Source of the DNA: Actinokineospora inagensis DSM 44258
Lineage (GTDB): Bacteria > Actinomycetota > Actinomycetes > Mycobacteriales > Pseudonocardiaceae
Direction of reading: 5' to 3'
NCBI RefSeq assembly: GCF_000482865.1
Contig: NZ_AXWW01000032.1
Span: forward strand, 1 to 64,000
DNA: 64,000 nt
Shown here: in pieces, positions 1,407 through 13,209 of the stretch
Layout of the letters: every line of letters begins with the position of its first letter
Position numbering within the stretch: the first letter of the stretch is position 1
Made by a program: the position numbers and the translations under genes
Notes under the pieces: model-generated
Told to the model about the DNA's origin: nothing
The model's database searches: none
The model's input: the letters and a program-made list of their open reading frames with translations, nothing else

Positions 1407-1898
1407 TTAGTCGGCGAGTGTCAGTGGTTCTGGGCTGAACTGGTGGGTGAGGAGGTCGTGTAGGAGGGTGGGCAGTGTGGGGGGTAGGAGTTTGTCGTGG
1501 CAGTGGCGGAGTTCCTGGAGTGGCCACCAGCGGCGTTCGATGAGCCCGGTCTTCTCGTTGGCTGTGGGTGTGGGTGTTGTCTGGGGTGTTGTGGTGGGGG
1601 TTCGGGCGAGGAAGACGTGTTCGATGCGGTGGTGGTCGCGGCCTTTGTAGTGGAAGCGGGTTTCGCGTGTCCAGAGTTTGCGGCCGAGGTGCGTGAGGAG
1701 GATTCCGGTTTCCTCGGCGAGTTCTCGGCGTGCCGCGGTGTGGAGATCTTCGCCGTGGTCGAGGCCGCCGCCGGGGAGTTCCCACCAGTGGTGGTCGGGG
1801 TCGGTGGGGTCGAGGGCATGGATGAGCAGGACGCGGTCGGTGGGGTCCAGTAGGAGGACGCGGGCGCCGATGCGGGGTGTTGTGGTGCGGGTGGGCAT
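1407..1898 (-). CDS. Nudix hydrolase
   Basis: 163 residues. The Nudix box is complete: GGGLDHGEDL, then RRELAEETGI (GX5EX7REUXEEXGU), at about residues 43-65, preceded by the usual HHWWELPGG strand. The protein probably hydrolyses a nucleoside diphosphate linked to another group; the substrate cannot be read from sequence. It is the last gene of a minus-strand cassette (radical SAM, kinase, EEP protein, Nudix), 64 bases after the EEP stop, with a GAGGA element upstream of ATG 1898. In this setting it may act on a modified nucleotide or sanitise a by-product, which is inference. The C-terminal third is rich in T and P and not diagnostic. Confidence 0.85.
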   Translation of the reverse strand: MPTRTTTPRIGARVLLLDPTDRVLLIHALDPTDPDHHWWELPGGGLDHGEDLHTAARRELAEETGILLTHLGRKLWTRETRFHYKGRDHHRIEHVFLARTPTTTPQTTPTPTANEKTGLIERRWWPLQELRHCHDKLLPPTLPTLLHDLLTHQFSPEPLTLAD

Positions 1899-1962
1899 GG
1901 CGTGGGCTGGTCCTCGCGGTCCGCTGGCGGGCGTGGTGTGCCTGCCGGACCGTGGTGGGGGT

Positions 1963-2802
1963 TCAGAACAGGGTCGGTTCCGGCTCGGCGAGTGTGGCCG
2001 CCGTGGCGGGATCGGACGTTAGCAGGCGTGTGGTGGCGGTCAGGGCCAGGCGCACCGAGAGTGCGGAGTGGTCGGTGAGTCGCGTGCCATCGGAGGCGAG
2101 TGTCCTGGTCTCGTGGAGGTAGTCGCACGCGAGCAGCGCGTCGGCCAGTGCGTGTGTGCCATGGGCGTGGTCGTAGCGGTAGCCCAATTCGGGTCGACGT
2201 GCCCAACTGTGTTCGACCTCGTGTGGGTGAACGTGCCGGAACAGGTCGCGTAGGCCGTGGCGGTGGGTGAGGTCGGCGTAGAAGTCGTGCTCGAATGGAG
2301 CGAATTGGCCCCGGTGTGGGGGTTGGTGGTGCGGTTCGAGGACGTTGAGGTCCCCGAGCAACAGCAGCGGAGCAGTACCCGCTGTGCTGGTCAGAGCCTG
2401 GGTGAAGTGCCGGATCCACTTCTTCTTGCGTTCGGTCTTCTCGGCGCCGGCATCTCGTGAGGGCACATAGGCGCCGATCACGCGCAGAGGCCCGTCCGTG
2501 GTGTCGATGATGACGCCGGTGGCGCGTGCGGGCAGGTAGTCGAGCGCGGCGTTGAGCGGGTCCGGGGTGGTCGGGAGTGTGCTGGCGATCATCACGCCGA
2601 GCTCGCCGGGGCCGTGGGTGGGGAAGGTGACCGCGTATCCGGCGGTGGTGAACGCCTCGGCGAGGTAGTGGCTGCCCGCGGTGGCTTTGGTCTCGGTGAG
2701 CACCAGGACGTCGTCAGACCGGTGGGTGAGCCAGCGCAGTTGGCGTTGGGCGCGGTCGAGGGAGGGGGCGCCGACGTTGACGGTGATCAGGCTCAGGGGC
2801 AT
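1963..2802 (-). CDS. Endonuclease/exonuclease/phosphatase (EEP) family protein
   Basis: 279 residues from ATG 2802. The EEP fold (exonuclease III/ExoA, phosphatases) is shown by the metal-binding Glu in LVLTETKATAG near residue 37, the LLLGDLNVLEPHHQ strand with Asp and Asn near the middle, a RYDHAHG segment and the terminal TDHSALSVRL with the catalytic Asp-His pair. Family members cleave phosphodiester or phosphomonoester bonds in nucleic acids, lipids or nucleotides; substrate unknown. A start at 2943 would add 47 low-complexity residues; ATG 2802 is preferred because it overlaps the kinase stop by 10 bases (2793-2802), as in a coupled operon. ExoIII-like DNA repair is the conventional alternative, but the neighbours point to nucleotide chemistry. 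Confidence 0.8.
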   Translation of the reverse strand: MPLSLITVNVGAPSLDRAQRQLRWLTHRSDDVLVLTETKATAGSHYLAEAFTTAGYAVTFPTHGPGELGVMIASTLPTTPDPLNAALDYLPARATGVIIDTTDGPLRVIGAYVPSRDAGAEKTERKKKWIRHFTQALTSTAGTAPLLLLGDLNVLEPHHQPPHRGQFAPFEHDFYADLTHRHGLRDLFRHVHPHEVEHSWARRPELGYRYDHAHGTHALADALLACDYLHETRTLASDGTRLTDHSALSVRLALTATTRLLTSDPATAATLAEPEPTLF

Positions 2803-3431
2803 GCCGCGCTCTTCTCGGTCAGGGCGTGGTGGACGAGGGACACGATGGCCGCGGCGATTGTCTCCGGTGGGTCGGTGGTGGCCTCCACCGAGGTGACCGA
2901 CCAGTCCCGTTCGCGCAGGTTGTCGATGGCTCGGAGATAGCACCGGACCTCGCGGAGGCTGTTGTCCGGAGCGCGTTCGAAGCGGCTGTGGCCGCCGCGT
3001 GCCCTGAGGCGGGCGCTGATGACCTGGGCGTCGCCAGTGAGGACGACCGACAGATCAGGCTGGTAGACGCCCTGGTTGAGTTGCCACACCACCTCCGTGG
3101 GCACATCGTCGAGCCCTTGGAGGACCAGGGAGGACGCGACATACCGGTCACACACCACCACGGCGCCCTCCACCAGGGCGGGCAGGATCTCGGTATCGAG
3201 TTGGTGGTGGCGATCGGCCGCACACAGGCAGGCCAGGGCCATGCCGCGGTAGGTGTCCGTTCCGTGACGTGCCAGCTCACCCAGGCGGGCGCGGGAGGGC
3301 TGGGCTGTGGAGTGCACAGGCAGGCCCGAACGCGCGAGCGTCTCGGTGACGAGCCGAGCGGTGGTGGACTTGCCCACACCACCAGGCCCGTCCAACGTGA
3401 GTAGCAGGCCGGGAAGCCGAGTGGTGTTCAC
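2793..3431 (-). CDS. Thymidylate-kinase-like nucleotide kinase
   Basis: 212 residues from GTG 3431, which overlaps the upstream TGA as GTGA. The P-loop LDGPGGVGKSTTARL lies near residues 13-27, the DRY motif (VVCDRYVASSLVLQGL) mid-protein and a lid-like RARGGHSRFE after it. These are the marks of the dTMP kinase family, which phosphorylates deoxynucleoside monophosphates with ATP. A housekeeping tmk is normally elsewhere in such genomes. This copy sits between a radical SAM enzyme and an EEP phosphatase, so it may phosphorylate an unusual nucleotide; that is inference. Length is normal for the family and no key motif is missing. Confidence 0.8.
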   Translation of the reverse strand: MNTTRLPGLLLTLDGPGGVGKSTTARLVTETLARSGLPVHSTAQPSRARLGELARHGTDTYRGMALACLCAADRHHQLDTEILPALVEGAVVVCDRYVASSLVLQGLDDVPTEVVWQLNQGVYQPDLSVVLTGDAQVISARLRARGGHSRFERAPDNSLREVRCYLRAIDNLRERDWSVTSVEATTDPPETIAAAIVSLVHHALTEKSAACP

Positions 3432-4540
3432 GCGGACGTCAGCGGCAACAGCCTGCGCCCATCCGCGGGTGCGGTGATCGGGCACTGCTCGGTGTCGACA
3501 TCGCCGATGCGTCCACCCGCGGCGACGACGGCTGCCGGGCACCCCTTGCCGCAGCCCGAGCCCAGGGAGCACGCCGCGCAGGTCGGGTTGGCGCCGACCC
3601 GGTAGCGGTCGTGGAACCGGTAGTCGTCGAGGCGTTGAGCGATGTCGGAATCGGTGAGGATGTTGCCGACGATGAACTCCGTGTCGGCATGTCGAGCACC
3701 GGGGGTACGGGCTGCGAACACCAGGTACGGGCACACCGTGACCTCGCCGGGGGTGAACACGTAGATGATCGTGCCCGCCTCGCACCCGGCCAGCGGGCGG
3801 CCGGCGGTGTTGGGGAAACGGATGTGCGCGACGTCGAGGTCCGGGCCGTCGAAAGGGGCGGTCAGCTCGAAGATCTCCCGCATGTGCAGGGTGGTCTTGG
3901 CCAACCTCGCCCGGGATTTCACGCCGCGGCCCATGCTGCCGAGCGGGTTGAGCAACACATAGCGGGCACCGTGAACGCGGGCAAAGGCACAGAGCCGGGC
4001 GTACTCCTCGTTCTGCGCCAACGTGTTCGGCGTGCACAACAACCCCTGCAAGATCCCCACCGCGGCAAGCTTGGCCACGGTGGCGACAGTGACAGCGAAA
4101 CTTGCCCGGTCACCGCGGAACTTGCCGTGCGACTCGGCCGCGAACCCGTCCAACGACACATTGCAATGCACCCCCAGGGCAGCCAGCGCGCCGATCCGGG
4201 CGTCGTCGAGCGCGGTGGCGTTGGTGCACACCCCGACACTCATCCCCGCGGACCGGAACGCGGCCACGATGGCCAGGAACTCCGGATGGATCGACGGCTC
4301 GCCACCGGTCAACGTCACCCGCGTGACCCGGGACGCCGCCAACCCGGGGATCACCTTCCCCACAACGTCTTCCAGCGACATCCGCCCACCGATCCTCGTC
4401 GCCGAGACGAAACAGTGCGCACAGCGCAAATTACAGTCCTCGTTGATCTGGACCAGCGCTTTGCGAAACGGCTGCTCCACCGTGGTGCGGAAGTAGCACG
4501 ACGACGCCACCTCGTCGGTGGCGATGCTGCGAGCGGTCAT
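3428..4540 (-). CDS. Radical SAM/SPASM-domain enzyme
   Basis: 370 residues from ATG 4540, chosen because GAGG stands 7-11 bases upstream; a start at 4690 would add 50 atypical residues. The N-terminal radical SAM core has CNLRCAHC (CX3CX2C, binds the 4Fe-4S cluster that cleaves SAM), TLTGGEPSIHPEF (SAM-binding GGEP) and VSLDGFAAESH. The C-terminus has a SPASM-type cysteine array: CEAG, TVCPYL, CAACSLGSGCGKGCPA. SPASM enzymes bind auxiliary clusters and modify peptides, sugars or other small molecules. It is first of four co-directional genes and divergent from a LysR regulator. No obvious substrate peptide is adjacent; the nucleotide kinase and Nudix neighbours suggest a nucleotide or nucleoside substrate (inference). 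Confidence 0.85.
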   Translation of the reverse strand: MTARSIATDEVASSCYFRTTVEQPFRKALVQINEDCNLRCAHCFVSATRIGGRMSLEDVVGKVIPGLAASRVTRVTLTGGEPSIHPEFLAIVAAFRSAGMSVGVCTNATALDDARIGALAALGVHCNVSLDGFAAESHGKFRGDRASFAVTVATVAKLAAVGILQGLLCTPNTLAQNEEYARLCAFARVHGARYVLLNPLGSMGRGVKSRARLAKTTLHMREIFELTAPFDGPDLDVAHIRFPNTAGRPLAGCEAGTIIYVFTPGEVTVCPYLVFAARTPGARHADTEFIVGNILTDSDIAQRLDDYRFHDRYRVGANPTCAACSLGSGCGKGCPAAVVAAGGRIGDVDTEQCPITAPADGRRLLPLTSA

Positions 4541-4576
4541 CGGGAACCTCGCTTCCCCAAGCGGTACACCGAAAGA

Positions 4577-4616
4577 GCCCGAACGGGCGAAAACCCACAT
4601 GATGTCCGCTCGGACA
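4577..4616. promoter_or_regulatory. Two short palindromes in the LysR/radical SAM divergent intergenic region
   Basis: Between the divergent starts (4540 minus, 4729 plus) lie GCCCG-AA-CGGGC at 4577-4588 and TGTCCG-CT-CGGACA at 4603-4616. Both are perfect inverted repeats. LysR regulators typically bind dyads of the T-N11-A type between themselves and a divergent target, so these are plausible operators. Binding is inferred, not shown. Confidence 0.4.
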
Positions 4617-4728
4617 GTAGCGCGACCCGCGATGTCTCGGCGAACATCTCTGGGCCACCCCCACGCGAACTGCGGCCAACGACAACCCAACTGTCCCCAC
4701 GAACATCAACGAACCCGCGGGGAGAACC

Positions 4729-5841
4729 ATGCCTGGCACGGACACCGGCGCGACGGAAACCCTCACGGCGCTACTGGGATGCCCGCCTCACCTGCTCGAC
4801 CTCAGCCTCGACCAACTCCGCACCCTCGCCGTCGTGCACGCCACTGGCACGGCCCAACGCGCCGCCCGCGCACTCGGACGCGAGCAATCCAGCGTGCAGA
4901 AACAACTCGACCACCTCAACAAGACCGCCACCCGACTCGTCGGCGAGGCACTCGTGGTCAAACAAGGCCGCGGCAAGGACTTCCTGTTCACCACCACCGG
5001 GGAAGAACTGGTCGCCCTGGCGCACAGCACACTCTCGGACTGGAACAACAGCCTGCACCACAGCCGACGACGACTCGGATCCACCGTCACCTTCGGCACC
5101 ACCGAGTTCACCGTCCAGTTCCTCGGCGCCATCTGGCCCACACTCCGCCACGACTTCGAAGCCCGCGGCATCCACCTCACCATCGAACACGTCCGCACCC
5201 GCGACCTCTGGCGCACCCTCGACAGCAAGAAAGTCGACATCGTCTGCGGCAGCCTCGCCGCCCCACCCAACCAAACCCCCACCCACGACTACGACTTCCT
5301 CGAATGGCACCGAGAACACGTCGCCATCCTCACCAACCTCACCACCCGAGAACTCCCCGACACCCCCATCACCGCCACCCAACTACCCACCCTCCCCCTC
5401 CTCACCCCCACCGCAGGACTCCTCGCCGACTTCCTCACCCACTGGTACGGCCCCGACCACCACTCCACCCTCAACGTCATCGCCACCATCGACTCCCTCA
5501 ACTACGGCCTCAACCTCCTCACCACCCACCTCCTCCACGGCTGCCTCCTCACCACCGACCGCGTCGCCGACGCCGCCCTCGACGGCCGCCTCCCCGGCCA
5601 AGGCCTCCGCAAACTCACCCTCGCCAACGACTACCACCCCCACCTCGAAATCGTCACCGGCATCCTCACCCGCAAACACGAACGCGACCACTACACCCCC
5701 GACCACCCTGCGCGTGCCGAAAACTACGTCCGCGCAGTTCAGGAGGCGTGTCGGTACTCGTGGATGACTCCGCCGATTCGGTCCAGTCGGCGTACGGTGA
5801 GGCGTTCGGGCCGAGGACAGCTTGGGCGGTGGCTTTGCTGA
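4729..5841 (+). CDS. LysR-type transcriptional regulator
   Basis: 370 residues, ATG 4729 preceded by GGGGAGAA. Residues about 22-85 form a winged HTH (LSLDQLRTLAVVHATGTAQR, then QSSVQKQLDHLNK). From about residue 115 a periplasmic-binding-protein-like effector domain follows (STVTFGTTEFTVQFLGAIW, VDIVCGSLAAPPN). It is divergent from the radical SAM cassette with 188 bases between, the classic arrangement for a LysR controlling its neighbour. The last 35 residues after position 335 have different composition, so the true end could have been altered by rearrangement. The ligand is unknown and might be a substrate or product of the cassette. Confidence 0.8.
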   Translation: MPGTDTGATETLTALLGCPPHLLDLSLDQLRTLAVVHATGTAQRAARALGREQSSVQKQLDHLNKTATRLVGEALVVKQGRGKDFLFTTTGEELVALAHSTLSDWNNSLHHSRRRLGSTVTFGTTEFTVQFLGAIWPTLRHDFEARGIHLTIEHVRTRDLWRTLDSKKVDIVCGSLAAPPNQTPTHDYDFLEWHREHVAILTNLTTRELPDTPITATQLPTLPLLTPTAGLLADFLTHWYGPDHHSTLNVIATIDSLNYGLNLLTTHLLHGCLLTTDRVADAALDGRLPGQGLRKLTLANDYHPHLEIVTGILTRKHERDHYTPDHPARAENYVRAVQEACRYSWMTPPIRSSRRTVRRSGRGQLGRWLC

Positions 5842-5956: not shown

Positions 5957-6798
5957 CTACCGGCCTTTGGGGAATGGGTCGAAGCCCATCAGCTCTATTC
6001 TGTCCTTATTCCACGAGCTTGCCTTGGTCGCGTCGGGGTGCCGGATGCCGAGATGCTCCGCGGGTGGGCTGTTGAGGTAGTCGGCCCACCTACACACGGA
6101 CAGATGCGGGCACTTGTCGATGTTGTTGTTGCAGTGCGTGCACAGGAGCCCGCGGACGGCTCCGGTGAAGTGGTCGTGGTCCACCACCGTGCCGAAGTCG
6201 CGGCCGCATGCGTGGCAGGCCGATCCCGCCAGGTCCACCAATGTCGCTCGGATGCGTCCGAGCGGGGTGGATGTGTCGAGATCCGGTGGCCAGGCGGCAC
6301 GTCCACCGAGGAAGTAGCATCGCACGCTCGCCGAGACATGTGCGGGATCGACTTCCTTATCCTGGAATTGAACCGTCCAGGTGACTTCTCGTGTCCGTTC
6401 GGAGTAGGCCCTTCCTGATCCCAGGGTGTGTCGAAGTTGCCGAGCCCGCGGCGGCGGCGTGGAGGAAGCTCCCGATAGTGGGTTCCATCGGTGTACCAGC
6501 GGAATCGACGGGTGTGGACGTTGTCGAGCGGTAAGAGGGCCGGAGTCAGCAAGTCCGGCTTGCGACCGCCCGAGCACAACGGAAACGTGCCCTCGAGCAG
6601 GTGGTAGCGCCCGTCATCACCCAACACCGCCCGGAGTGCCATACCGCCCCACCGGCGCCTACGCAGAGAACACTCGGTTCCAATGGCGTCGCGGACATGG
6701 CGGTCGACCGCGTCGTGGTCCAGCTTCAACGCCATCCTCGACAGGAGGTTCCTCCTCCGTCCTTCCGGCCATTCATCAAGCCCAACTGAGTTCGCCAC
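5957..6798 (-). pseudogene. Recombination endonuclease VII-like gene with a frameshift
   Basis: Two minus-strand frames join into one gene. The upstream half (GTG 6798 or ATG 6735) reads ALRAVLGDDGRYHLLEGTF and DNVHTRRFRWYTDGTHYREL down to about 6420. The downstream half carries the endonuclease VII signature: CHACGRDFGTVVDHDHFTG followed by RGLLCTHCNNNIDKC, with paired cysteines for zinc and a DHDH active-site strand, and ends at 5957. Total length 842 bases is not divisible by three, consistent with loss of one base near 6400-6430. Such HNH-type nucleases occur in phages and in actinobacterial accessory DNA. The gene is probably inactive unless the shift is a sequence error or is recoded. 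Confidence 0.6.
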
Positions 6799-6973
6799 GC
6801 GTTCACGCTATCGCGGCGAACACGCCGCGATAGCGCCGTTCACCGTGGCGAGCGCGCGTAGCGTCCAGTGCTTCGCCCCACAGGATAAGGTCCAGCTTGT
6901 GTCCTTGGATGACTCCGCACGCGAAGGTGCCGACAGACTCGACCCCGCCTCCGATTCGGCGGAGGACCGGGCG

Positions 6974-9469
6974 GTGACGGAGCCGAGGCAAGACTCGCTG
7001 CGGAGCGGCGTGGTCAACTCGGTGATGGGCGAGGTGTCCGGGTTGCTGGTGCAGGCGGGGCGAATCGAGGGCGGGGTACACCAGCATCACCACGCGGCAG
7101 CCAGGGCGACGGTGAGTTTTCCTCACCGAGCGGGTCCACTTCCCCTGCGAGCGGCGTCGTTCCAGCGCCGTGCGCTGTCGGAATCTCTTGCCCCGCTCGT
7201 GGACACCATCGTGTTGTCGGGGATGGGGGGCACGGGCAAAACCCAACTCGCGGCCGAGTATGCCGAACGTGCGTGGACGGCTGGTGAGATCGACCTTCTG
7301 GTGTGGGTCAGCGCGGGGACGCGGGACGCGGTGATCTCCAGCTACGCGCGTGTCGCAGCCGATGTGACAGGCGTCGAGGACGCCCGTCCGGACGACGGAG
7401 CGCGACGGTTCCTCGACTGGTTGGCCAGCACGTCGATGCGATGGTTGGTCGTCCTCGACGATGTCCGGACACCGGCAGACCTCGTGGAGCTATGGCCCGC
7501 ATCCTCCACGACGGGGCAAGTGGTGGTGACGACCCGGCGTCGCGACGCCGCGCTGCAGGCCCAAGGCCGGGTCTTCGAGGTGGAGCCGTTCACGAGCGCG
7601 GAAGCGGAGGCGTATCTGGCCAGTGTCGTGGAGGGGCGACGGCATCTGTTGGACGGCAGCATTGATCTGGCCACAGCCTTGGGATGCTTGCCGCTGGCGC
7701 TGGCTCAGGCCGCCACGTACATGCTCGATCGAGAACTGTCCTGCACCGCCTACATGAGACGGTTGGCCGATCATCGAGTACGACTGGCAGCCGTGTTGCC
7801 AGAAAGGGAGGCCCTGCCGGACGCGCATCAAGTGACCGTCGCCGCGACATGGTCGCTGTCCATCGAGCTCGCCGACCGACTCGCACCCGTTGGCCTGGCG
7901 AGTCCTCTGCTGGACGTGGCTGCGCTTCTGAGCCCCGACGGGATTCCGGTGGGCCTGTTCAGGGCGCCGAGCGTGGTCAGCTACCTGGGTGAGCGGGCCG
8001 GACGGGCCGTCAATGGTCAGGATGTCCAGGATGGTCTGCGGTGCTTGCATCGGGTCAGTCTGGTCATCTTGGACGGGCCGGTCGTACGAGTCCACGGTTT
8101 GGTGCAGCGAGCCGCGCGAGACGACGTGACCCCGGACAAGCTCCAGACGCTGGCACGCGCGACGGCCGACGGGCTCCTGCACTTGTGGCCAGACGTCGTG
8201 CGGAACTCGCCGCTCACCCAGGTACTCCGGGCGAACACCGACGCCCTGGCGACCAACTGCGACGACCACCTCTGGCACGACGGTGCGCACGAGGTGCTGT
8301 TTCGGGCAGCGAGCAGCCTCGGCGCGACCGGCATGGTCACCTCCGCGGTCAGCCGATTTCGCTCGTTGCACTCCGCCGCGAATCACCGCCTGGGACCTGA
8401 CCACGCCGACACCTTGACGACGCGCTCCGAGGCCGCCCACTGGCAAGGGGAGACCGGCGACAGCACCGGCACGGTGCGCGCGTTGACGGAGCTGCTCTCC
8501 GACCGGACACGAGTCCTGGGACCAGACCACCCCGACGTATTGACGACCCGCAACGACCTGGCCCATTGGCAAGCCCGCGCAGGCAACGTGCACGACGCGA
8601 TCCGTACTGCCCAGGAGCTGGTGCTCGACCAGACCAGGCTGCTCGGAGCCAACGCCCACGCCACCCTGGTCACCCGCGCCAACCTCACCACCTGGCTGCG
8701 GCACACAGAGCAGCAGGCGCAGGTGCACGACACATTCGAGGATCTGCTCGCTGACCTGCTGCGAGTCCTGGGAACCGATCATGAACTCACACTGAAGACC
8801 CGAGCCAACCACGCCATCACACTGGCCGAGTCGGATGACCCGTCCCGAGCGATCCCCGTGTTCGACGAACTGCTGCCCGACCTCGTGCGAGTCCTCGGGC
8901 CAGACCACCCCACCACCCTCGACGGCCAACTGGCCGCAGCCGCCGCACGAGGACACGCAGGAGACCCGGCCGGTGCCACCGCGGCGTTCGAGGACATGCT
9001 GGTCGACCACCTTCGAGTGCTCGGTCCCGACCACCCCAAGACACTGATGACCCGACACAACATCGCTCATTGGACAGCCGAGGCAGGCGACCCGACGAAG
9101 GCCACACAGGCACTCGATGACTTGCTACCCGACATGCTGAGAGTTCTCGGCGCGGACCACCCCTACACACTGGCCTGCCGCTACGCGCTGGCCACCGTAC
9201 GCGGGCAGGCAGGCGACCCGAACGGCGCCATCGCGGCGTTCCAGGAACTCCTCCAGGACCAAGAGCGCGTCTTCAGCGCCGACCACCCGCAGACCCTCGA
9301 CATCCGCGGCACCATCGCCATCTGGCGCAACGAGGCAGGCGACTTGACGGGAGCCATAGCCGCCCTGGAAGCCCTGCAACCCGACCAACAGCGCGTTCTC
9401 GGACCTGAACACCCCACCACGCTCATCACCCGCGAAGCCATCGACATGTGGCGAGCTCTGTTTGGATGA
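6974..9469 (+). CDS. STAND NTPase: RHIM-like N-terminal motif, NB-ARC, TPR array
   Basis: 831 residues from GTG 6974, chosen because GGAGGA ends 7 bases upstream; open frame further left looks non-coding. Residues about 12-38 (VVNSVMGEVSGLLVQAGRI) resemble a bacterial amyloid-signalling (BASS/RHIM-like) motif with a central VQAG. The NB-ARC domain has Walker A GMGGTGKT (83-90), Walker B WLVVLDDV (157-164) and a VHGLVQRAAR winged-helix end near 373. From residue 473 eight TPR-type repeats of exactly 42 residues follow, plus a partial ninth, built around LGPDHPxTLxTR. Such proteins sense a ligand through the repeats, oligomerise with ATP and signal to an effector. No effector domain is fused, so a partner with a matching motif may exist elsewhere. 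Confidence 0.8.
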   Translation: MTEPRQDSLRSGVVNSVMGEVSGLLVQAGRIEGGVHQHHHAAARATVSFPHRAGPLPLRAASFQRRALSESLAPLVDTIVLSGMGGTGKTQLAAEYAERAWTAGEIDLLVWVSAGTRDAVISSYARVAADVTGVEDARPDDGARRFLDWLASTSMRWLVVLDDVRTPADLVELWPASSTTGQVVVTTRRRDAALQAQGRVFEVEPFTSAEAEAYLASVVEGRRHLLDGSIDLATALGCLPLALAQAATYMLDRELSCTAYMRRLADHRVRLAAVLPEREALPDAHQVTVAATWSLSIELADRLAPVGLASPLLDVAALLSPDGIPVGLFRAPSVVSYLGERAGRAVNGQDVQDGLRCLHRVSLVILDGPVVRVHGLVQRAARDDVTPDKLQTLARATADGLLHLWPDVVRNSPLTQVLRANTDALATNCDDHLWHDGAHEVLFRAASSLGATGMVTSAVSRFRSLHSAANHRLGPDHADTLTTRSEAAHWQGETGDSTGTVRALTELLSDRTRVLGPDHPDVLTTRNDLAHWQARAGNVHDAIRTAQELVLDQTRLLGANAHATLVTRANLTTWLRHTEQQAQVHDTFEDLLADLLRVLGTDHELTLKTRANHAITLAESDDPSRAIPVFDELLPDLVRVLGPDHPTTLDGQLAAAAARGHAGDPAGATAAFEDMLVDHLRVLGPDHPKTLMTRHNIAHWTAEAGDPTKATQALDDLLPDMLRVLGADHPYTLACRYALATVRGQAGDPNGAIAAFQELLQDQERVFSADHPQTLDIRGTIAIWRNEAGDLTGAIAALEALQPDQQRVLGPEHPTTLITREAIDMWRALFG
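8390..9469 (+). repeat. Eight and a half tandem 126-base coding repeats (TPR)
   Basis: Starting at 8390 the coding sequence repeats every 126 bases (8390, 8516, 8642 and so on to 9398). Each unit encodes a 42-residue TPR-like helical pair beginning LG(P)DHP. The spacing is exactly 42 codons throughout, while the sequences have diverged, so the array is old but length-constrained. It forms the presumed sensor of the STAND protein. Confidence 0.75.
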
Positions 9470-11247: not shown

Positions 11248-11463
11248 CGTCGTGTTATGCCTTTCTTACTGAAGAATCGGACGATCGTTTCGTGGTACGA
11301 CGATATCGACTGCAGTGTCGAGGCACAGTCGAACAAGTCGCAGGTTCTCGTACGAATTCCACGGGTCAGCCGGTAACGCGCCTGCTCAGCACTCGATGGG
11401 TAGATCACCCAAAGCCGCACCCGACCCGGGACATCGGGGGGGTCGAGGTGCAACGATAGCGCC

Positions 11464-13209
11464 ATGCCTGTGCCGCGCTCCTGGTCATCGCCGGTGAACG
11501 TGGCGATCGCGCGCCTGCTCGGCCGTCGTGCCAAGGTCAACCTGTTACTGCTTGTGCTGGTCGCGGTCGCCGTGTCGGTGCTGTGCGCGTGGCCGCTGTG
11601 GAAGCGGGCGCCAGGCTTCGCGCTGGTTCCGGTGTTCGTCTCGGTGTCGTTCTGCGGGTCGCTGCTCGTCCTCAACGACGAGCTGGGCCGGGGCCGCGGC
11701 GGCGCCACCTCGATCCTCTTGGTGGTCGCCGGGCTTGTCTGGCCCACCAACTACCTTTACGAGTGGGGCACGCCCCTGACCATCCACCTGTCCATGATCG
11801 GCAGCACGGTCTTCTGGTGGGTAAGCGCGTGCGCCTGCCTGATGTACCCCCAGCAACGCCTGGAGGGCTTGGAACGCGGATACCTGGTGGTGCAGGGCCT
11901 GTGCCTCGGCGGCCCCGAGATCTACCTGGTTCTCACCGGGGAGACCTACGACGCGCTGCCCTACTTCGAGTACGTCGCCCTGGGTTTCGGCATCGGGTTC
12001 CTCGGCGTCATGTCGATCCGCTACCGTCGGTACAAGGGCGTGGCCCGGAAAACGCTGATCCCGGTATTGATATCCGGTGTCGCGCTCGCGCTGACCGGCG
12101 CCTTTTCGTGGTTTCTGCTGCTGTCCAGCGGAATCTACACCCCGCGCGTCGATCAAGGCTTGGTTGACCTGGTGTTCTGCGTCCAGGGGTGTCTGCTCGT
12201 CGTCGCGGCACCCATCGGATTGGTGGTCGGCGGTCTCCGACGGAGGTTCATCCAGGCGGCGGTCGCCGATGCCCTCGCGCGGCTTCCCCCGGACGCGCCG
12301 CCCGAGGTCCTGCGGGAAGCCCTGCGCCGCGCGCTGCGCGACGACCGACTGGACATCCTTTACCGCTCGCCCAACCAGGGCGTCTACGTCAATTCGGACG
12401 GCCACACGGTGGAACCGCCCGAAGAGGACTCGGACAAGGTCGCGATCCAGCTCCACGCGGGCGGGGACCGCGCGATGGCGGTGCTCGTCGCGGACAGGCA
12501 ACTCGCGGGCGAGGTGGCGCTGTTCGGGGACGCGGTCTCGGCACCGAGGCAACCCGTGCTCGCCGTGTGGTTGCAGGTCCACGAGCGGGCCAACCGGGAA
12601 CAGCAGCGCGCCCTGTATCGGCGCCTCGAAGAAGAGCGGTGGAAGGAGCGCCAGCGGCTCAGCCGGGATCTGCACGATGGCGTCCAGCAACACCTCTACA
12701 TCCTGGGGATGTGCCTGGCCCTGGCGGGCGAACAGGTGAAGGACGACGCCGCGGCCGACAGCGTCGAACGGGCGCGAGGCCAGTTGTCCGCCATCCTGCC
12801 CGCCTTCCGCGACCTGATCCACGACCTGGCGCCACCGGAGTTGGCCCGCAACGGGTTGGGGTGCGCCATCCACGCCCTCGTCGAACGCCAACCCATCTCC
12901 GTCGACCTGCACCTCGGCTCAGCCCGCGCCCCCATCTCCGTTGAGTACATCGCCTACCTCATCATCTGCGAGGCGCTTACCAACATCATCAAGCACGCGG
13001 TTGCGAACCAGGTCGTGATCATGACCGCGATACGCGAGAACGGCCTTGAACTCACGATCTCCGACAACGGCATCGGCGGCGCGGACATGAACCGCGGGAT
13101 AGGACTGGTCAGCCTGCGGGACAGGGTCCAGTCGGTAGGTGGTCGACTGTCGCTGGATTCCCCGCCAGGGTCCGGTACTCTCATCGAAGCGAGGATCCCG
13201 TGCGAGTAG
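11464..13209 (+). CDS. Membrane sensor histidine kinase (HisKA_3 type)
   Basis: 581 residues. The first 260 or so contain about seven hydrophobic membrane segments, starting VNLLLLVLVAVAVSVL. A linker region follows to about residue 395, then the dimerisation/phosphoacceptor helix RLSRDLHDGVQQHL with His404. The ATPase domain shows the N-box EALTNIIKHA near 503-512, the G1 box DNGIGGAD and GIGLVSLRDR. This is the NarX/DesK class, which autophosphorylates on His and passes phosphate to a NarL-type regulator. The stop overlaps the start of the response regulator by 10 bases, so the pair is coupled. Signal unknown. Confidence 0.9.
   Translation: MPVPRSWSSPVNVAIARLLGRRAKVNLLLLVLVAVAVSVLCAWPLWKRAPGFALVPVFVSVSFCGSLLVLNDELGRGRGGATSILLVVAGLVWPTNYLYEWGTPLTIHLSMIGSTVFWWVSACACLMYPQQRLEGLERGYLVVQGLCLGGPEIYLVLTGETYDALPYFEYVALGFGIGFLGVMSIRYRRYKGVARKTLIPVLISGVALALTGAFSWFLLLSSGIYTPRVDQGLVDLVFCVQGCLLVVAAPIGLVVGGLRRRFIQAAVADALARLPPDAPPEVLREALRRALRDDRLDILYRSPNQGVYVNSDGHTVEPPEEDSDKVAIQLHAGGDRAMAVLVADRQLAGEVALFGDAVSAPRQPVLAVWLQVHERANREQQRALYRRLEEERWKERQRLSRDLHDGVQQHLYILGMCLALAGEQVKDDAAADSVERARGQLSAILPAFRDLIHDLAPPELARNGLGCAIHALVERQPISVDLHLGSARAPISVEYIAYLIICEALTNIIKHAVANQVVIMTAIRENGLELTISDNGIGGADMNRGIGLVSLRDRVQSVGGRLSLDSPPGSGTLIEARIPCE

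Follow-up and report, generated by a model that had tools for sequence, protein, structure and literature searches.

The 64,000-nucleotide stretch analysed here (positions 1 to 64,000 of contig NZ_AXWW01000032.1 from Actinokineospora inagensis DSM 44258; hereafter the window) carries near its start a compact cassette of four reverse-strand genes and a divergent regulator gene. The four encode a SPASM-type radical SAM enzyme (rSAM; 3428–4540, 370 amino acids (aa), ATG start; Pfam Radical_SAM, E 8.4e-19), a thymidylate-kinase-like nucleoside monophosphate kinase (2793–3431, 212 aa, GTG start; Pfam Thymidylate_kin, E 2.5e-26), an ExoIII/APE-like nuclease of the EEP family (1963–2802, 279 aa; Pfam Exo_endo_phos, E 3e-8; NCBIfam xth, 76.6 bits), and a Nudix hydrolase (1407–1898, 163 aa; Pfam NUDIX, E 2.7e-23). 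A LysR-type regulator is encoded on the forward strand (4729–5841; Pfam HTH_1, E 1e-6, with relatives found by tblastn), and the divergent promoter region (4541–4728) is conserved among LysR-bearing cassettes in an alignment of 19 intergenic regions. The rSAM and kinase genes share four bases (GTGA, 3428–3431), the kinase and EEP genes share ten (2793–2802), and 64 bases (1899–1962) separate the EEP and Nudix genes; this arrangement, described in an earlier reading made from the letters alone (the sequence-only reading), was borne out to the base. Among 29 cassettes, counted with three remnant loci left out and with the kinase start set by hand in three, the rSAM and kinase genes overlap by four bases in 27 and by a single base in 2. 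Because this overlap is kept across the 29 cassettes, the adjacency of the two genes is not due to chance.

Cassettes of this kind are termed type A here. In a sample of 200 Pseudonocardiaceae genomes, with family membership judged from named relatives, 14 (the window's own included) held an rSAM orthologue or remnant at at least 69% identity, and the other matches in the family, among the matches listed, reached at most 79 bits. Orthologues are scarce in class- and phylum-level samples: at E 1e-40, 3 further genomes of 394 had one, in one case with an internal stop, and at E 1e-25, 2 further genomes of 396 did, the second sample also holding one distant 93-bit match that was not counted. A contig scan yielded 30 loci, one of which was dropped (L062, 22% identity). 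The hosts include Actinokineospora, Lentzea, Saccharothrix, Kutzneria, Amycolatopsis, Streptomyces, Micromonospora, Actinomadura, and others. Matches occurred in 3 of 50,697 phage records, all distant (at most 39% identity), and four orthologues lay on putatively viral IMG/VR contigs. When genes were clustered over 32 loci, rSAM was present in 32, the kinase in 31, the EEP gene in 31, Nudix in 21, and LysR in 20. Beyond the cassette no gene family occurred in more than 10 of the 32 loci, the widest being two kinds of helix-turn-helix regulator and a short-chain dehydrogenase. The flanks were almost unshared between genera and partly shared within Lentzea, Amycolatopsis, and Micromonospora; the window and its closest relative (L033) had no flanking gene family in common in the stretch compared. 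The type A cassette is a real, patchily distributed, and sharply bounded family.

Gene integrity was tabulated for 49 type A loci, a gene being called unbroken when a single match without a stop covered at least 85% of the reference. The rSAM gene was unbroken in 39 of them; L072, in which the first 40 rSAM codons lie 6.3 kb away, was moved to the broken set. Beside an unbroken rSAM gene, the kinase gene was unbroken in 38 of 38 judgeable copies, the EEP gene in 37 of 37, and a nucleoside triphosphate (NTP) hydrolase gene in 35 of 36, the hydrolase being unjudgeable in three loci that end too early (L006, L073, and L081). The sequence-only reading had made its case depend on the four genes being habitual neighbours, and on these counts they are. 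It had also proposed co-inheritance of rSAM and kinase as a check, with a mixed outcome: the distances of rSAM, kinase, and EEP correlate (r 0.88–0.93 over 25 loci, with none of 2000 permutations as high), but kinship among related species inflates the correlation. Ten type A copies have lost the rSAM gene or carry it broken; in these, the hydrolase was unbroken in eight, the EEP gene in five, and the kinase in three, and no type A copy combined an unbroken rSAM gene with a broken partner. A set composed of a producer and its antidotes would show such a pattern.

A kinase-led search recovered four further module types (B–E), in which relatives of this kinase are accompanied by other radical SAM enzymes and a DNA-repair enzyme; the proposed nucleotide system thereby appears to extend beyond the window's cassette. 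The repair partner is ExoIII-like in type A, AlkA-like in B, an RNase T-type exonuclease in C, AlkZ-like in D, and an HhH-GPD protein in E. Type B consists of an upstream AlkA-like glycosylase (profile match to 3-methyladenine glycosylase, E 9.7e-8), a cobalamin-binding radical SAM enzyme, the kinase, and a Nudix, MazG, or CYTH protein, and its loci (L152 5597–8827; L161, L162, L164–L167, and L170–L174) lie mostly on Streptomyces plasmids. Among 13 non-A matches on Streptomyces and Kitasatospora plasmids, 11 had an annotated radical SAM gene directly upstream and 2 had rSAM remnants. In L152, from the window's own genus, the match to the type B rSAM is in separate pieces, possibly because of damage to the gene. 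Type C comprises a radical SAM enzyme (Pfam score of the complete protein weak, E 0.01), the RNase T-type exonuclease, and the kinase; in L153 (5510–6715, the same gene as L220 12509–13714) the latter two are fused in an open reading frame (ORF) of 401 aa, beside a radical SAM gene split between two frames. Type D holds the kinase, a radical SAM enzyme (29% identical to that of type B, and like it with a cobalamin-binding domain), the AlkZ-like glycosylase (E 1e-30), and MazG in one run (L213 2998–6599 and L214 3198–6750). Type E, known from one locus, has the kinase, the HhH-GPD protein (below its cut-offs, with 97 bits against 136.5 for TIGR03252 and 23.2 against 26.2 for Pfam), and a radical SAM enzyme weakly matching that of type A (25% over 139 aa).

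The association of this kinase with radical SAM enzymes was surveyed in a 393-genome sample, in which seven candidates from a first look were scored for each genome. Every one of the 16 clade kinases (at least 141 bits) lay within 1.5 kb of a radical SAM homologue or remnant of the five types, as against 0 of 45 other thymidylate kinase (TMK) loci, and the 17th-ranked kinase (134.7 bits) was only part of a gene, within the remnant of a type A cassette (L216). Where a single gene of a module bears a lesion, that gene is rSAM in six of seven cases (L051, L077, L152, L211, L153, and L206) and the kinase in L205 (0.028 by length share), a weak count on which we do not lean, since kinase-found loci favour intact kinases and drafts may hold errors; L168 was left out of it because its glycosylase gene is lost. 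Several observations on individual loci are also recorded. In L205 (0.6–8.1 kb) a type B module with CYTH and a kinase fragment stands directly beside a complete type C module, and small resolvase-like proteins, judged by eye, adjoin two type C modules (L154 5845–6156 and L206 5337–5720). A relationship of type B to OxsB was considered and rejected, with OxsB absent from the PDB matches at E 1 and AprD4 the best match. On a Vibrio lentus plasmid (L169, ~2.1–10.5 kb), a tmk gene has two pyrF genes and a gene with an adenylation domain as neighbours; this nucleotide-linked cluster is of another kind.

The hydrolase position is occupied by different families in different copies. In type A these were Nudix in 19 copies, MazG-like proteins in 6, and CYTH in 10, and in type B all 16 copies with an unbroken rSAM gene had the position filled (Nudix 11, MazG 1, CYTH 4), many of the type B plasmids being near-copies of one another. 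Pfam support for the short type A MazG-like proteins was weak in L032 (E 0.033) and none was obtained for L049 and L031, the protein of L031 being annotated as MazG-like. Nudix, MazG, and CYTH are unrelated families that all act on triphosphates. Because all three exchange in one position, in two modules with different radical SAM enzymes, the exchange points to a nucleoside triphosphate.

The window's kinase lies above the NCBIfam dTMP_kinase cut-off (94.8 against 83.25 bits) and, like bacterial Tmk, keeps the P-loop and two arginines (R74 and R96), but the acid, the aromatic residue, and the tyrosine of the dTMP pocket are replaced by G17, C70, and L104, respectively. Another Tmk-like gene of the genome, on contig C53, scores 61.5 bits, under the same cut-off. 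We compared pocket residues in 33 type A, 16 type B, and 5 type C kinases (not every copy) with those of 29 of 30 canonical loci, the remaining locus having yielded no readable frame, and also included one Tmk-like protein of the window's genome. The P-loop lysine and both arginines were kept in all compared kinases. The acid was present in 29 of 29 canonical enzymes and lost in 53 of 54 module kinases, its position (Asp9) being occupied by G or N (one D) in type A, by S, G, A, or C in type B, and by S in type C. The tyrosine was likewise canonical in 29 of 29 and absent from 54 of 54, with L at the Tyr103 position in all type A kinases and L, M, or V in types B and C. The stacking aromatic, canonical in 29 of 29, was lost in 33 of 33 type A kinases (C, V, L, or I instead) and 16 of 16 of type B (V instead). 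Type A kinases therefore retain the acid in 1 of 33, the aromatic in 0 of 33, and the tyrosine in 0 of 33. The Tyr103 position lies against C2'. According to PMC3619541, Asp9 bonds a sugar hydroxyl in the enzyme of M. tuberculosis and Phe70 stacks on thymine. The pocket changes suggest that the substrate has an altered sugar and, for types A and B, perhaps an altered base as well. Together with the exchange in the hydrolase position, they lend strength to the idea, put forward in the sequence-only reading, that the cassette would act on nucleotides.

In a phylogenetic tree that included 23 of the 33 type A rows, a branch with an SH-aLRT support of 96 separated the kinases of types A–E from canonical TMKs. 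The kinases of types B, C, and D fell among those of type A, the inner forks of this quick tree being weakly supported and its branches long. On this grouping, several radical enzymes appear to have been served by a single lineage of kinases.

The EEP protein retains seven residues invariant in 25 rows (N9, E37, Y112, D151, N153, D244, and H245), which we take to be catalytic and which correspond to the catalytic residues of exonuclease III and AP endonuclease. Its best sequence matches are exonuclease III and APE1, not a phosphatase. It differs from them in falling below the xth equivalog cut-off of 99.05 bits and in a stretch between W200 and the GYRYD motif that, in profile alignments, is some six residues shorter than in ExoIII. 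Because other modules hold DNA glycosylases or a 3'-5' exonuclease in the same place, the EEP protein looks like a DNA-repair nuclease rather than the nucleotide-editing phosphatase proposed in the sequence-only reading. Removal of nucleoside analogues by the exonuclease activity of APE1 is reported in PMC7841161.

The core motif of rSAM, CxxxCxxC, spans residues 36–43. In an alignment of 26 rows (56–92% identity to the window's protein), C36, C40, and the seven C-terminal cysteines of the SPASM pattern (C253, C270, C321, C324, C330, C334, and C353) are invariant and C43 is nearly so; Pfam did not call a SPASM domain in rSAM at E 0.001. In the plasmid copy L031 (9001–10110) the third core cysteine is Tyr, so that this enzyme, counted as unbroken, may be inactive. 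No B12-binding domain was found in the type A rSAM by Pfam, which sets it apart from cobalamin radical SAM enzymes. The best NCBIfam score was that of the mycofactocin maturase (89.7 bits, under the cut-off of 265), and the best PDB profile match was SkfB. A precursor of a ribosomally synthesized and post-translationally modified peptide (RiPP) was sought among 2509 ORFs of 20–100 aa lying no farther than 5 kb from the rSAM gene of 29 loci, a search blind to peptides shorter than 20 aa or farther away, and no cassette-wide precursor was seen. The clusters of small ORFs were confined to the promoter region or to single lineages, and the largest, in 9 of 29 loci, lay over conserved promoter DNA with ends that differed between loci. 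A conserved precursor had been named beforehand as the observation that would overturn a nucleotide pathway, and that pathway has come through the search.

Control by LysR, also anticipated from the sequence, is supported by operator-like dyads at fixed spacing in the shared promoter. Three putative operators occur in the window's divergent promoter: dyad 1 at 4603–4616 (TGTCCGCTCGGACA, a perfect match to TGTYCGNNCGRACA), dyad 2 at 4633–4646 (two mismatches, 30 bp from dyad 1), and dyad 3 at 4692–4705 (one mismatch, 59 bp from dyad 2). Across 20 LysR–rSAM intergenic regions (4354 bp), the dyad TGTYCG-N2-CGRACA was found at 55 sites as compared with 0.7 expected from flanking DNA, an enrichment partly built in since the pattern was derived from those same regions. 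Three dyads, spaced 58–59 and 30 bp, were present in 17 of the 20 regions, two in one region, and one in two. In the window alone the dyad was not enriched (15 against 14.5 expected at two mismatches). The fixed spacing is a stronger sign than the number of sites, and the evidence lies in their clustering and spacing across loci. Similarity of LysR to most relatives covers codons 1–327 by tblastn and the last 43 codons are not widely conserved, the LysR of the genus relative L151 matching up to codon 359. In L071, an RNase T-type exonuclease gene (11341–11985) adjoins the LysR gene of a type A cassette.

Other genes beside the cassettes were also noted. In the window these encode an endonuclease VII-like protein (5957–6577) and a TPR/NB-ARC protein of the FxSxx-COOH system (6683–9469; 348 bits against a cut-off of 300). 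The Micromonospora cassettes (L053–L056 and L060, ~6.3–9 kb and beyond) have an extra HD_4 protein and, judged by eye, an aminoglycoside-phosphotransferase-like protein, the gene for which overlaps the rSAM start in L054, with Creatininase and PCC-domain genes downstream.

Taken as a whole, the cassette is probably a self-protected nucleotide-analogue factory, viperin-like in its logic but aimed at DNA. Its substrate, its product, the direction of each reaction, the target, and the purpose are what we infer from the computed make-up and conservation of the gene set, the exchange of its parts, the altered pocket, the operator-like sites, and the way in which the genes decay. With LysR switching the cassette on from the divergent promoter, rSAM would turn a nucleotide (or nucleoside) into an abnormal form, with the change probably in the sugar near C2'/C3'. 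Having a pocket that is apparently unfit for dTMP, the thymidylate-kinase-like enzyme would raise the abnormal monophosphate to the diphosphate, and the host nucleoside-diphosphate kinase would make the analogue triphosphate. This would poison DNA (or RNA) synthesis, most plausibly that of a phage or another replicating element, while Nudix (or MazG, or CYTH) would destroy stray analogue triphosphate and the ExoIII-like EEP protein would strip the analogue from the 3' ends of host DNA. The earlier proposal of nucleoside modification is supported in part: the idea of a nucleotide pathway gains strength, and the EEP protein looks less like an editing phosphatase than like a repair nuclease.

The likeness to prokaryotic viperins lies in a radical SAM gene beside a nucleotide kinase, for which PADLOC has a model ('Viperins associated with kinases'), and in the presumed nucleotide analogue; in addition, the core of rSAM gives a match of 59.2 bits to the pVip model over residues 31–141. 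The window's rSAM differs in its seven-cysteine SPASM-like C-terminus, and the cassette adds an NTP hydrolase and a DNA-repair enzyme, which to our knowledge occur in no viperin operon. Membership of the viperins was rejected at 46.8 bits against the NCBIfam viperin_w_prok cut-off of 180. Viperins (PMC12926258) nevertheless set a precedent for the radical SAM nucleotide-analogue logic. The oxetanocin (OxsA/OxsB) and albucidin (AlsA/AlsB, or AlbA/AlbB) systems likewise use radical SAM enzymes on deoxynucleotides: according to PMC13331322, OxsB and AlsB are cobalamin enzymes acting on 2'-dATP/2'-dAMP, and OxsA is the phosphohydrolase partner of OxsB, inactivating its product. They differ from type A, whose enzyme is of SPASM type, in this use of cobalamin and in the HD type of the OxsA hydrolase, and the text consulted mentions neither a kinase of their own nor a partner for DNA repair. 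Genotoxin clusters (AlkZ, YtkR2, and TxnU2/4) resemble the modules in encoding a repair enzyme with the producer of a DNA-directed compound, DNA glycosylases serving as self-resistance (PMC9040887), and the type D glycosylase is AlkZ-like; they make larger secondary metabolites, whereas the modules are sets of three to five small genes centred on a nucleotide kinase. The module kinases form a clade separate from bacterial Tmk. The gene set does not qualify as a member of the nearest known families, and no description of it was found in the literature searched, which left most subscription journals uncovered.

Other purposes can be read into the same genes. The chemistry could serve a compact biosynthetic cluster whose product, a nucleoside antibiotic comparable to oxetanocin or albucidin, is exported after dephosphorylation to attack neighbours, the producer being protected by self-resistance. 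Besides the nucleotide-acting cobalamin enzymes OxsB, with its phosphohydrolase, and AlsB, this would agree with a 'thymidylate kinase' gene within the cloned albucidin region, with the partly shared flanks in three genera, and with several extra genes, including a periplasmic binding protein, common to five Micromonospora loci; AlkZ-like glycosylases are, moreover, enriched in biosynthetic clusters, suggesting self-resistance (PMC9040887). We nonetheless consider a secreted product unlikely, given that no non-cassette family exceeds 10 of the 32 loci, that the widest three are not transporters (although local transporters may lie among the flanking genes, most of them unannotated), and that a kinase working in the direction of the triphosphate is more in keeping with a role inside the cell than with export. 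A cassette for pool maintenance and repair without a toxic product, in which the radical SAM enzyme reverses a lesion, the hydrolases clean dNTPs, the EEP protein or glycosylase repairs, and the kinase salvages, draws on partner families that do include repair and sanitation enzymes and on a known radical SAM DNA-repair enzyme, spore photoproduct lyase. Its decay would be expected to run the other way: no type A copy keeps rSAM while losing a partner and the hydrolase usually outlasts a broken rSAM gene in the ten copies, the opposite of what a harmless housekeeping enzyme would leave, with L205 of type B as the exception. Its distribution is also patchy, and one and the same repair would need to be carried out by three or more radical SAM groups that are quite unlike each other, which makes this purpose decidedly doubtful.

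Two further explanations fare worse. A kinase, a hydrolase, and a DNA glycosylase or nuclease would suit a pathway that keeps a modified dNTP in check and places it in the DNA of the host or of an element, where it marks that DNA epigenetically or protects it. Such hypermodification is very improbable, since neither a polymerase nor a restriction partner is conserved, no extra family again exceeding 10 of the 32 loci, and since a removing glycosylase or exonuclease in each type argues that the base or sugar is unwanted in DNA. The SPASM enzyme might instead mature a ribosomally made peptide, with the kinase, EEP, and Nudix genes as co-opted neighbours, SPASM enzymes being mostly peptide maturases and the mycofactocin maturase and SkfB its best NCBIfam and PDB matches. 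This is hardly credible when no ORF of 20–100 aa within 5 kb is common to more than 9 of 29 loci, those nine lying over the promoter dyads, when the rSAM and kinase genes overlap by four bases in 27 of 29 cassettes, and when the same kinase clade also serves cobalamin radical SAM enzymes.

The analogue-factory interpretation must also accommodate several observations that weigh against it. SPASM enzymes act mostly on peptides, and the nearest solved relatives of rSAM are split between SkfB, a peptide maturase, and BlsE, a nucleoside enzyme, at similar scores. The gap in the EEP protein falls in a region that contacts DNA in ExoIII/APE1, and because part of this region is missing, DNA may not be its substrate. 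No recognised hydrolase is present in L074, none was seen with type C, and none was found by eye in the 12 kb examined of type E. Type C kinases keep the aromatic pocket residue, as Tyr (5 of 5). L205, of type B, has an unbroken rSAM gene with a kinase fragment only, although the type C kinase lies next door, and among the four type B copies with a broken rSAM gene, Nudix is also broken in one (L163) and the glycosylase is absent from two. Some of the broken genes may be draft-assembly errors, and the loci differ in their biases according to the query that found them. Finally, the five types are not five independent inventions, judging by their sequences, because the radical SAM enzymes of types A and E, and of B and D, are distantly alike.

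As to purpose, the cassette and its relatives may represent a kind of chemical weapon, or of defence against viruses, that has not been described before. We suggest more tentatively, as an idea that could well prove wrong, that the modules built on this kinase clade are a new class of systems directed against phages (or plasmids), making DNA-directed analogues with exchangeable antidotes. Each would join the altered kinase to one of several radical SAM enzymes, with Nudix, MazG, or CYTH as the antidote at the level of the triphosphate and an exonuclease or glycosylase at that of DNA. If so, these modules would be DNA-targeting counterparts of viperin, and the repair partner would predict the lesion, namely a 3' sugar change where it is an exonuclease (types A and C) and a base change where it is a glycosylase (types B, D, and E). 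The combination of a radical SAM enzyme, an altered thymidylate kinase, an NTP hydrolase, and a DNA-repair enzyme would then serve as a rule for genome mining, and actinobacteria would hold, in radical enzymes yielding new nucleotide analogues, a source of antiviral or antibiotic chemistry in which the antidotes are encoded beside the producers.

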